From: Pseudanabaena sp. PCC 7367 | GTDB lineage: Bacteria > Cyanobacteriota > Cyanobacteriia > Pseudanabaenales > Pseudanabaenaceae | Assembly (NCBI RefSeq): GCF_000317065.1 | Contig: NC_019701.1 | Span: 3,668,001 to 3,732,000 of the forward strand | Reading direction: 5' to 3' | DNA: 64,000 nt | Shown: positions 18,222 through 21,820 of the stretch, one piece after another | Layout: each line of letters starts with the position of its first letter | How positions within the stretch are numbered: position 1 is the stretch's first letter | Program-made: the position numbers and the translations under genes | The notes under the pieces: generated by a model | The model's database searches: none | Told to the model about the DNA's origin: nothing | The model's input: only the letters and a program-made list of their open reading frames with translations

Positions 18222-18776
18222 TTAATGATTAGTTTCGCTGATCGAGAGACGATAATCAGTGGCAGAGCCATCGATCGAGGCGATCCAAATTTGATATTCG
18301 CCTAGCGCCCAGGCTCCAGAAATTTCCGGCGATCGACCGGTTTGGCAAAACACTCCATCTGGCCCTTTTACCAGCAACGAAATATTCTTAGATATCCCTT
18401 CCGCTTTGATACTAAGTTGCCCAAACGGATTTATCAATTGCAATACATGATTAGGCTTGGATTGAGTTAAGCCCTGGCAATCGCCCACAGCATTACTACC
18501 AGCGATCGCCTGCAATTGCATCGCTCCACTTGCCTTACCAGCATAGGTGATTGGATCAGGGCTGAACCGAGGCGCGATCGGGCTAAACATATTCTGGCTG
18601 GAGGCAATCCCTGGCCAACCAGAAAAGGCAGTTAAAACCGCTACCGCGATCGCTGCTTGAGTTATTTTTTTTAGCCCCAACTTAGCCCTCATCCCAATGC
18701 TGCGCTTAGCTTGGTTGGCAACGATCGGAGCTAGCGCGGTTTGGTTCATTGTTTGCAAAAATTTCTGGTCGATCAT
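18222..18776 (-). CDS. Secreted protein, paralogue of the upstream gene
   Basis: A 184-residue exported protein. A hydrophobic segment (AAIAVAVLTAFSGWPGIASS) follows a basic N-terminus, giving a signal peptide near residues 25-60. The mature part (FSPDPITYAGKASG, DCQGLTQSKPNHVLQL, SLLVKGPDGVFCQTG, GEYQIWIASIDGSATDYRLSIS) matches the neighbour segment by segment. The beta-rich layout recalls the bacterial pre-peptidase C-terminal (PPC) domain, here as the whole mature protein. It overlaps the upstream gene by the 4 bp ATGA, showing translational coupling. The internal Met at residue 10 is an alternative start. Function unknown. Confidence 0.72.
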   Translation of the reverse strand: MIDQKFLQTMNQTALAPIVANQAKRSIGMRAKLGLKKITQAAIAVAVLTAFSGWPGIASSQNMFSPIAPRFSPDPITYAGKASGAMQLQAIAGSNAVGDCQGLTQSKPNHVLQLINPFGQLSIKAEGISKNISLLVKGPDGVFCQTGRSPEISGAWALGEYQIWIASIDGSATDYRLSISETNH

Positions 18777-19297
18777 TTTTGAGCTATTTCACTAATCGAA
18801 AGCGTATAGTTGACCGATTGGTTAGCATTACCAGTGCCAACCCAGATTTGATAATTACCCTGGCTTAATCGCCTGGTGATCTGGGGATTGCGGCCACGAT
18901 ATTCATCATCGGCACAAATTACTAATCCATTATCGCCCTTCACCAGCAAAGTCAAATCCGCATTGATATTTGGGGTATGTACCAGCATATCAACCAGAGG
19001 GAAATCTTCGGTCAACTGGACTACGTGATTGGGGTTTTGATTACTAAAACCACGGCATCTGCCCTGCATCCCAGCCAGACTGGGAATACTCTTGCCCCCG
19101 CCAGCGCTGCCAGCCAGTTCGATCGGGTCGGGTCTAAAATTTCGCGCCAGAGATAATGATTTGGTTTGCGCCGTGACACTTCCTGCCAGAACCGCGATCG
19201 ATCCGCTAGCCACAACCAAAGCACCAATCAAACTTAAGCCTTTGCGTAAAGTTTTATCCATTTTCTCAATCCTCCCCGCCATAGTTACGTTGCCCAA
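18773..19297 (-). CDS. Secreted PPC-like protein, first gene of a tandem pair
   Basis: A 174-residue exported protein with a signal peptide (LSLIGALVVASGSIAVLAGSVTAQT, about residues 17-44, cleavage probably after VTA). The mature part is one beta-rich domain with FRPDPIELAGSAGG, CRGFSNQNPNHVVQL, LTLLVKGDNGLVICADDE and GNYQIWVGTGNANQSVNYTLSISE. Cys residues pair in position with those of the downstream copy. The layout resembles PPC domains, which often accompany secreted proteases. The frame could also start at the downstream Met (about residue 6 or 13). The pair probably arose by tandem duplication. Confidence 0.72.
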   Translation of the reverse strand: MGNVTMAGRIEKMDKTLRKGLSLIGALVVASGSIAVLAGSVTAQTKSLSLARNFRPDPIELAGSAGGGKSIPSLAGMQGRCRGFSNQNPNHVVQLTEDFPLVDMLVHTPNINADLTLLVKGDNGLVICADDEYRGRNPQITRRLSQGNYQIWVGTGNANQSVNYTLSISEIAQK

Positions 19298-19629
19298 CTA
19301 AACAATCTAAATCACATTTAAATATCGCATTAAATAACGATACATCTGGAACCAGAATCCCCTAGATTGCAATCCTAAACTCTTAGCCGCTGTGCTGGCT
19401 GGATTTGTAAGAATTGTCAACAATCAGGATTAAGCATTTATTTGTCCACAACTCAATGACGTAGCTCTTGGGATTAATGTTCCTTATAAGTATTAATTCT
19501 CATGGGGATTTAGCGATTGTAAAGCTATGTAAACATTTTAGCGTCATAACCGCACAACGTCTTGACAGGATTTTTGAATGACGGTTATATTATGCCCATA
19601 CCCGGGTAAACCAAATTAGCAAAAAGTAT
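19298..19629. other. Divergent intergenic region
   Basis: About 330 bp between the secreted pair and the ribbon-helix-helix gene. The right part holds the promoter and palindrome listed separately. The rest is AT-rich with no frame or hairpin that I could support. Confidence 0.4.
19562..19608 (+). promoter_or_regulatory. Sigma-70-type promoter with palindromic operator candidate
   Basis: A consensus -35 box TTGACA (19562-19567) is followed after 18 bp by TATATT (19586-19591). The expected transcription start is near 19598. Precisely there is the perfect 10-bp palindrome TACCCGGGTA (19599-19608), the only CCCGGG centre noted in this region. The coding start follows at 19630. A palindrome at the start site is a good position for a repressor, and the downstream gene encodes a ribbon-helix-helix protein, so autoregulation is a natural hypothesis. 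Confidence 0.6.
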
Positions 19630-19950
19630 ATGCACGACAAGCAAAAGGTAACCCTTTACCTATCAGCGGACTTACACCGCCAACTAAAGATTCGCTCGGC
19701 GATCGATCAGGAATCTATGTCGGAGTTGGCAGCAAAGGCAATTTCTTTTTATCTCTCCCATGCTGAGGTGGTAGAAAGAGCCGGAGTCGGATATACGCAC
19801 CAGGTTCATAACTGTCCTGCTTGCGAACAGACTCTTGTTATTAAAGAGGGTGAATTGTTGGCAGTCGGTGGCGATCGGAGCGATCGCAATGGCTCAGTCC
19901 AGACCCCTGCGCTGACCGGCCATGATGAAGAGTTAGTCACAGTTAGATAG
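19630..19950 (+). CDS. Ribbon-helix-helix protein with CxxC motif
   Basis: A 106-residue protein. Residues 5-45 form a ribbon-helix-helix domain: the strand KVTLYLSADLHRQLKIRS and helices QESMSELAAKAISFYLSHA. After it comes HNCPACEQTL with Cys62 and Cys65, which could bind metal or form a redox disulfide. The tail is acidic and disordered. It lies 361 bp before ycf46 in the same direction. A comparable small gene precedes the ycf46-like slr0374 in Synechocystis (slr0373-slr0374-slr0376 cluster), and this may be its counterpart; I state that from memory of the cluster. DNA binding is inferred from the fold. Confidence 0.75.
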   Translation: MHDKQKVTLYLSADLHRQLKIRSAIDQESMSELAAKAISFYLSHAEVVERAGVGYTHQVHNCPACEQTLVIKEGELLAVGGDRSDRNGSVQTPALTGHDEELVTVR

Positions 19951-20311
19951 ATCGCCTAAGGGTATTGATCCAGGATACTGGCATCTAAATATCCAATATA
20001 TCCAGATATGCCAGTAAGCTAGCCAAATTCTAATAGCATTGCCCCGGTCTGAAGTCATAGGTTAAGTAGTTACAAATCTAATAGATTATCAACTTTAATC
20101 TACTGCATCAGCAGATTTATCCAAGATTAATCAAGGATCAGCAGCTAATATTAAGAGCTCCAAGCCTAATTTTGATTTAGAACGATTTAGATCATTTTAG
20201 ATCAGAACGATTAAGTGCTAGAGCAGGTTCTAAGCTCCTTGGTTTACGATTCGGTTTATCCCTCCTCACCACAAGCTTTGATTAAGCTTTAAGAAATTAA
20301 GCTAATAGGCC
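19951..20311. other. Intergenic region upstream of ycf46
   Basis: About 360 bp, AT-rich. It contains near-direct repeats: GAACGATTTAGATCATTTTAG followed by a second AGATCAGAACGATTAAG (about 20180-20215), and AAGCTTTGATTAAGCTTTAAG just before the gene. No frame or terminator hairpin was seen, so ycf46 may have its own promoter here. Confidence 0.35.
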
Positions 20312-21820
20312 ATGCGAGAAGAACTTAGTATCCTTATCCAAGCTCAGTATCCCTTGATCTATCTCAACACCTCGGAAGAGGAAAGAGCAGAACAAGCGAT
20401 CGCTGCCATTGCCCAAATCAAGCCAGCTAGAGCATTATTCACCTGGACTGTAACCCGTGGCATGGTTGAGTATGGGCAGGTTAATGCTACTCAACACAAC
20501 ACAATCTCACCACAGGCCGCGATCGAATGGGCAATTCGCCACAAAGATCCAGCTATATTTGTATTCAAAGATATCCATCCCTTTGTAGAAAATCCTGAAG
20601 TTTGTCGTTGGCTCCGTGATGCTGTAGCCAGTTTTAAAGGCACGCTTAAAAGCATTATTATGATGTCATCGGTGCAATCGGTGCCGATCGAACTAGAAAA
20701 GGAAGTAGTAGTCCTCGACTTCCCCCTACCCGACATCCAGGAAATAGAAGCGGTGTTAGCGGAGCAACTAGGACAATCGCGCTATCACAAAATGCAGCCT
20801 GATACTAAGGAAAAATTGGTGAGGGCGGCTCAGGGATTAACCCGCGATGAAGCCGAGAAAGTCTACCGTAAAGCCCAGGTAACCACAGGCAAGCTCACTG
20901 AGAACGAAGTGCAGATTGTGCTGACCGAAAAGCAGCAACTGGTTAGACGCAATGGCATTCTTGAATATTTAGACTGCGAAGAGGGCATGGGTTCGGTTGG
21001 TGGCCTGGAAGAATTAAAACATTGGTTAACGGAGCGCACTACGGCGTTTAGTTCCAAGGCTAGGGAATATGGCCTTCCCCAACCAAAGGGGATGCTAATC
21101 ATTGGTGTACCCGGCTGTGGTAAGTCGTTGATTGCCAAAACTACTTCTAAGCTCTGGTCTTTGCCCCTGGTACGATTGGATATGGGTCGGGTATATGACG
21201 GTAGCACCGTGGGCCGATCGGAAGCGAATCTCCGTAATGCTCTCAAGGTGGCCGAATCGATCGCCCCGGTCATTCTCTTCATTGATGAACTAGATAAAGC
21301 TTTTGCCGGTGGTGCTGGCTCTGCCGACTCTGATGGTGGTACTTCTTCACGGATTTTTGGTTCTTTCCTGACCTGGATGCAAGAAAAAACTTCACCAGTA
21401 TTTGTAATGGCCACTGCCAATCGGGTCGATCGCCTACCCAGTGAATTCTTGCGCAAGGGTCGCTTTGATGAATTATTCTTTATTGATCTGCCGAACCAGG
21501 ATGAGCGTCGCGCTATCTTCCAAATTCACCTCAACAAGCGCCGTTCTGACCTGAGCAGATTTGACATTGACCAACTGGCGAAGGAAATTACCGAAGGATT
21601 TTCTGGCGCTGAGATCGAGCAAGCCTTGATCGCCGCCATGTACACAGCTTTTTCGCAGGGCAGGGAATTTACCCAACTTGATATCATCTCAGCAATCAAG
21701 TCAACCACCCCACTATCGCGCACCATGACCGAACAGGTCGCTGCACTCCGCGATTGGGCCAGGTTGAGGGCTCGCCCTGCGGCAACTACAGACGCTGAAT
21801 ACCAGCGAATGGAGTTCTAA
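20312..21820 (+). CDS. ycf46: Ycf46-family AAA ATPase
   Basis: A 502-residue AAA+ ATPase of the Ycf46 family found in cyanobacteria and red-lineage plastids. The N-terminal about 230 residues are the Ycf46-specific region (begins EELSILIQAQYPLIYLNTSEEERA). The AAA core follows with Walker A MLIIGVPGCGKSLIAK, Walker B ILFIDELDKAF, sensor 1 VFVMATANRVDRLP, and the Arg-finger region FLRKGRFDELFF. The family has been linked to photosynthesis and inorganic-carbon stress responses, but its biochemical target is not known. It is followed by ycf35 after 147 bp containing two hairpins, which may modulate expression between the two genes. Confidence 0.93.
   Translation: MREELSILIQAQYPLIYLNTSEEERAEQAIAAIAQIKPARALFTWTVTRGMVEYGQVNATQHNTISPQAAIEWAIRHKDPAIFVFKDIHPFVENPEVCRWLRDAVASFKGTLKSIIMMSSVQSVPIELEKEVVVLDFPLPDIQEIEAVLAEQLGQSRYHKMQPDTKEKLVRAAQGLTRDEAEKVYRKAQVTTGKLTENEVQIVLTEKQQLVRRNGILEYLDCEEGMGSVGGLEELKHWLTERTTAFSSKAREYGLPQPKGMLIIGVPGCGKSLIAKTTSKLWSLPLVRLDMGRVYDGSTVGRSEANLRNALKVAESIAPVILFIDELDKAFAGGAGSADSDGGTSSRIFGSFLTWMQEKTSPVFVMATANRVDRLPSEFLRKGRFDELFFIDLPNQDERRAIFQIHLNKRRSDLSRFDIDQLAKEITEGFSGAEIEQALIAAMYTAFSQGREFTQLDIISAIKSTTPLSRTMTEQVAALRDWARLRARPAATTDAEYQRMEF

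Follow-up and report, generated by a model that had tools for sequence, protein, structure and literature searches.

Among the closest described systems is the slr0373-slr0374-slr0376 operon of Synechocystis PCC 6803, whose members are the top three blue-light-induced genes in the available portion of PMC7496141. Citing work by others, the same portion reports that the operon responds to lack of iron, sulfur or nitrogen, to salt, to high light and to oxidative stress, and it terms the function of the operon unknown. slr0373 also appears among the genes with high fitness upon CRISPRi repression at 30% CO2 in the accessible part of PMC11782454. For the kind of regulation considered here, the excerpted text of PMC10272220 describes TrcR (All0854) of Anabaena PCC 7120, a ribbon-helix-helix (RHH) protein and proven autorepressor whose site is conserved in cyanobacteria and overlaps the -10 box and transcription start. 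A search of the literature, as far as its text is openly searchable, yielded no published description of an operator TACCCGGGTA or of RHH-type DNA binding by Slr0373.

We analyzed a stretch of 64,000 nt of the genome of Pseudanabaena sp. PCC 7367 (hereafter, the window), which carries an slr0373-family gene followed by genes for an AAA ATPase and a DUF1257 protein (Table 1). An initial annotation of this DNA had described the first product as an RHH protein with a CxxC pair that could sense redox or metal, had pointed out a near-consensus promoter with a palindrome at the expected transcription start, and had suggested that autoregulation reaching the neighboring ycf46-ycf35 unit could form a compact stress circuit. 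On the evidence below we consider it probable that the RHH protein represses its own operon through the palindrome TACCCGGGTA at the start, that stress relieves this repression, and that an upstream HLR1-type box couples the promoter to RpaB.

Table 1 Features of the slr0373-type locus, in window coordinates.
Feature	Position	Strand	Basis or remark
HLR1-type direct repeat (KTTACAWW-N2-KTTACAWW), candidate RpaB site	19516..19533	-	0 mismatches in window
Inverted repeat, family consensus TTGCCGTCATRACGGCA	19539..19555	.	columns -23..-7 relative to TTGACA, conserved across 135 promoters
-35 box TTGACA	19562..19567	+	sequence; alignment selected for this box
-10 box TATATT, spacer 18 nt	19586..19591	+	sequence
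Predicted transcription start, A of conserved CA	19598	+	inferred from spacing and alignment
Palindrome TACCCGGGTA	19599..19608	.	predicted operator, +2..+11
slr0373-family ribbon-helix-helix protein with CPxC hairpin, 106 aa	19630..19950	+	profile, fold, conservation
AAA ATPase, slr0374/Ycf46 type, 502 aa	20312..21820	+	Pfam; synteny
DUF1257 (Ycf35-like) protein, 116 aa	21968..22318	+	PF06868, E 9.9e-23

The 106-aa product matches the NCBIfam model NF052617, "slr0373 family blue light stress response protein", with 131.3 bits (E 1.5e-38), above the curated cut-off of 100. With the Pfam RHH models the window protein scores under the cut-offs, yet the RHH assignment of the initial annotation is backed by the family profile and by the fold. 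PF20605 is matched at E ≤0.01 by 21 of 100 family members (best 1.2e-5), these being E values and not comparisons with a cut-off, and the best solved matches by sequence profile, all three of them small proteins, are 4aai (ORF E73), 2kel (56B) and the RHH protein 9kkd, with E values of 0.005-0.024. In a monomer model with a mean pLDDT of 74, two helices span residues 13-26 and 30-43, and the CPxC motif sits in a small hairpin; the N-terminal strand segment is extended but unpaired, because the monomer model has no second subunit. When the model was compared with known structures using a second aligner, the top rows were all RHH proteins (PutA, NikR, CopG, Arc and StnY), with Z scores of 5-6.3 over residues ~3-50, and a Foldseek search gave no match of E below 0.001. 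The reliance on a monomer model of this pLDDT and the outcome of the Foldseek search are counted against autorepression. A ribbon-helix-helix domain, as judged from the modeled fold, together with a CPxC pair is nevertheless a supported description of the slr0373-family protein.

The CxxC pair is indeed present, as C62-P-A-C65, and CPxC occurs in 169 of 169 complete orthologues. An additional cysteine at the extreme C-terminus, absent from the window protein, is found in 116 of these 169. K6, T8, C62, P63 and C65 do not vary among 100 diverse orthologues, and further positions, including V7, L9, Y10, H16, K20, M30 and S31, are nearly invariant. Some slr0373-family proteins give weak Pfam matches to half-ribbons. 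A two-knuckle zinc ribbon of the Top1/ligase type was considered and rejected, as each member has one CPxC and 17 of 100 members hold just two cysteines. Because one CPxC amounts to half a zinc ribbon, the motif could form a dimer-shared zinc site or act as a redox switch. Homologues of the protein on plasmids or phages were sought at E 1e-3, and none were found.

The near-consensus promoter, TTGACA-18-TATATT at 19562-19591, matches the consensus at 11 of 12 positions and is the top scorer within 18500-20500. For comparison with relatives we aligned 135 orthologous promoters on TTGACA, selecting only those with at most two mismatches to the palindrome and at most one to the -35 box. Four blocks emerged from this alignment: (i) the HLR1-type repeat, (ii) the inverted repeat TTGCCGTCATRACGGCA, (iii) CTTGACAG and (iv) CATACCCGGGTA, the last of which contains the ten palindrome columns. 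The -35 box is preceded by C in 97% of the aligned promoters and followed by G in 82%. Directly 5' of the palindrome stands A in 94% and, one column before it, C in 86%. From this conserved CA and its spacing to the -10 box, transcription is predicted to start most likely at A19598, which places the palindrome at +2 to +11. The perfect palindrome TACCCGGGTA thus begins one base after the predicted start and 7 nt past the -10 box, in agreement with the position assigned to it initially.

A 10-mer such as this one is expected by chance, with up to one mismatch, 0.78 times in the window alone; a single window is therefore insufficient as proof, and relatives are required. Within its own 4.89-Mb genome, TACCCGGGTA has one exact copy, at its own promoter, and the 8-bp core ACCCGGGT has four, the remaining three of which lie within ORFs. 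Of 291 genomes of the class, 126 contain the composite pattern TTGACA-N26..36-TACCCGGGTA, each as a single copy, compared with 1 of 291 for a reversed control. All 30 composite loci that were opened have an slr0373 orthologue directly behind the pattern and then the AAA gene. Across 58 relatives there are 64 exact TACCCGGGTA sites, 29 of them at an slr0373-family promoter. With a site so largely confined to a single promoter, we favor a local autoregulator over a global one. A wider regulon for the palindrome was considered and rejected, exact sites elsewhere being few and mostly intragenic: 15 of the 16 non-promoter sites examined, in four genomes, lie within ORFs (16 of ~35 such sites were covered). 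The one intergenic exception, in the genome G048, is located upstream of an ORF that we take to be RlpA-like.

To assess conservation, 177 loci were gathered and four duplicates removed, leaving 173 distinct orthologous promoters. Of the 177, 30 loci were chosen for having the palindrome, and 57 and the others by protein match; genomes with weaker protein matches are under-represented, except for 30 that were deliberately added. Taking the best match per 130 nt, 96 promoters have the palindrome exactly, 28 with one mismatch, 12 with two and 37 with more. It is therefore present with at most one mismatch in 124 of 173 promoters, compared with 0 of 168, 0 of 168 and 0 of 173 control windows. Among the 57 orthologues picked by protein alone, 29 have an exact match and 40 a match within one mismatch. 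The expectation that the palindrome should recur upstream of orthologues is thus borne out for most of the family, while some lineages lack it. The full set of three genes, behind a promoter of the same form, was also seen in four named records: two Nostoc, Okeania hirsuta and a Leptolyngbyaceae MAG. These records come from a loose-pattern scan of named genomes, whose matches were mostly due to chance: among the 80 loci listed, 4 carry the gene, and all four are cyanobacterial.

The position of the palindrome is nearly fixed, with 36-38 nt between TTGACA and the palindrome in 120 of the 135 aligned promoters. Conservation of its ten columns is 87-100% among these promoters, which were selected for at most two mismatches, whereas the adjoining 3' bases and some of the spacer come close to random. 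At three loci of one genus a symmetric double change, to TACCTAGGTA, retains the dyad. An ordinary strong promoter, conserved by descent and containing a palindrome without a dedicated binder, might account for a pattern in which the -35 box, the HLR1-type box and the inverted repeat are likewise conserved. We regard this explanation as very improbable in view of the contrast between the palindrome columns and their near-random surroundings, and because control windows of the same loci contain no such match.

Upstream of the core promoter, the HLR1-type box lies at approximately -82 to -65 relative to the predicted start. With at most two mismatches it is present in 118 of 173 orthologous promoters, compared with none in two control sets of 168 and 173 windows. 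The HLR1 consensus was taken from PMC13421787, which, in its available part, gives an activating range of -66 to -45 and a repressing range of -38 to +23. The box in the window resembles members of the RpaB/HLR1 light regulon in fitting this consensus without a mismatch, and differs from them in its position, which, measured from the predicted start, is outside both of these ranges, just past the activating one. Between the HLR1-type box and the -35 box, at approximately -59 to -43, is the inverted repeat TTGCCGTCATRACGGCA, the window copy of which is degenerate. This repeat is conserved about as a regulator site would be and fits no motif known to us; an assignment as an Rre1 site was rejected, as the motif GTNCGGK given in the available text of PMC13421787 was mismatched on inspection by eye. 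When the inverted repeat was searched for, 45 of 116 genomes contained matches; by coordinates, most of these lie elsewhere than the slr0373 promoter, and no clear regulon emerged. The predicted operator, the HLR1 (RpaB-type) box with its constant upstream position and, third, the inverted repeat are new observations at the slr0373-operon promoter. Because of the two upstream elements, which the initial annotation had overlooked, the circuit would comprise more than autoregulation.

These upstream elements also suggest the involvement of outside regulators, and one may ask whether the palindrome is a real operator of a different dedicated regulator encoded elsewhere, with the RHH protein acting otherwise, for example on its AAA partner. 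The orthologues lacking the palindrome bear on this question. In 37 of 173 orthologues there is no match within two mismatches, and all but one of these proteins (KAT) retain the pattern KVT[LYC][YH] in the DNA-contacting strand. Operator and protein accordingly do not visibly co-vary: covariation between the operator and the RHH strand was looked for and none was seen, the strand hardly varying at all. An unchanged strand in orthologues without a clear site agrees with a separate regulator and is counted against autorepression, although some of the site-lacking cases may reflect wrong gene starts (e.g., L052 and L054). Against a separate regulator, the site is nearly private to the slr0373 promoter, and the RHH protein is the sole regulator always encoded beside it (57 of 57 with the AAA neighbor). 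On balance we consider a separate regulator unlikely and retain repression by the RHH protein itself as the preferred reading.

A further departure from the canonical site is seen in two genera (6 genomes), in which the half-sites are set apart, as TACCC-N3-GGGTA or TACCC-N4-GGGTA with a variable center. Half-sites 3 or 4 bp apart are counted against autorepression, since a rigid dimer should not tolerate them. They would, on the other hand, fold as 5-pair hairpins, in leaders of -4.8 to -7.2 kcal/mol, and the palindrome is by prediction located in the first transcribed bases. Both points are compatible with a role in RNA or in start-site selection, i.e., in promoter escape or as an mRNA-stabilizing 5' hairpin. 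For the canonical form we reject an RNA hairpin on the folding of 96 exact leaders: the palindrome self-pairs in the predicted fold of 1 of the 96, and the leaders show no gain in stability over shuffled sequences (mean z +0.5). Because the spaced variants could fold, the RNA hairpin is retained as a rival, and we judge a role in RNA or start-site selection to be quite improbable.

The gene order around the promoter is strongly conserved. In 57 of 57 relatives the next gene 3', in the same orientation, is the AAA gene, and the DUF1257 gene is downstream in 9 of 9 relatives as well as in all four named records, so that the proposed reach to the ycf46-ycf35 unit is supported by synteny. The proposal of a stress circuit is consistent with the stress response of the slr0373 operon as related in the accessible literature. 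The gap between the RHH and AAA genes (19951-20311) is ~361 nt; in most relatives it is shorter, roughly 25-200 nt. Divergent from the operon are two short ORFs on the minus strand (18222-18776 and 18773-19297), which resemble tandem copies of a secreted protein and gave no significant match in Pfam.

The slr0373 family is present in 74 of 194 genomes of the phylum, all within the window's class of cyanobacteria. In 15 genomes without slr0373, thirteen of which are from one family, the best Ycf46-like protein is just 40-45% identical, compared with ~67-100% for the partner gene, indicating that the slr0374-type partner is missing as well. In the tested lineages, slr0373 and its AAA partner have been jointly lost. 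The genome of Pseudanabaena sp. PCC 7367 itself encodes four Ycf46-type AAA proteins, of which the window's alone is beside an slr0373 gene, and the bare name ycf46 is therefore ambiguous. A second slr0374-type gene (69% identical) occurs in another genome, G047, where no slr0373 gene adjoins it. Some Ycf46-like paralogues (~41% identical) have a DUF1257-like neighbor of their own (37-41%), and pairing of AAA and DUF1257 genes may thus be a more general arrangement.

In the mechanism that we propose, an RHH dimer would place its two-stranded sheet (K-V-T-L-Y-L from each subunit) in the major groove of TACCCGGGTA. Bound at +2 to +11, the dimer would prevent RNA polymerase from initiating, and the repressed targets would be its own gene, the AAA ATPase gene and the DUF1257 gene. 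Stress would lift the repression, most simply via a change at the CPxC motif (zinc loss or disulfide formation), and RpaB, the light/redox regulator, would act on the promoter through the upstream HLR1 box. A more far-reaching version, which we offer tentatively and hold to be somewhat doubtful, is that this promoter has been retained since an early stage of oxygenic cyanobacteria, with four fixed boxes: an RpaB site, the inverted repeat, a core close to consensus, and an operator private to the CPxC-bearing RHH protein. The RHH protein would then serve as a redox/zinc thermostat for its own AAA-DUF1257 operon, its sole target, and the AAA ATPase could in turn act on the repressor by stripping or remodeling it, which would close the loop.

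Compared with the slr0373-slr0374-slr0376 operon of Synechocystis PCC 6803, the locus described here has a first gene of the same family (NF052617) and an AAA neighbor of the same type. The third gene encodes a DUF1257 protein here and is slr0376 in Synechocystis; the operator, the RHH assignment and autoregulation are absent from the accessible part of the published description of the Synechocystis operon. With TrcR the locus shares a conserved dyad over the start of its own promoter, the start being a predicted one here, and it differs in that one target is seen, whereas the regulon of TrcR, in the available part of its description, lies on translation genes. An identification with TrcR itself was rejected, the two being set apart by site: the TrcR site ATACTACACTTGTATTAC has at least 8 mismatches on either strand within 19401-19700. 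NikR consists of an RHH domain followed by a second, metal-sensing domain, an arrangement that the slr0373-family protein may resemble, and the RHH part aligns with it at Z 6.0 (2wvf). The second domain of NikR is a large nickel-binding ACT-like domain, in contrast to the short CPxC hairpin predicted here. The CopG, Arc and omega repressors also have the RHH fold and bind small operator dyads, and to our knowledge they have no CPxC hairpin. The system would be an additional instance of RHH autorepression, a known class, in this case on a stress operon, an assignment that is strengthened but unproven. The conserved predicted operator, the HLR1 box and a putative regulator with one target together provide a direct bench handle on how the slr0373 operon is switched.
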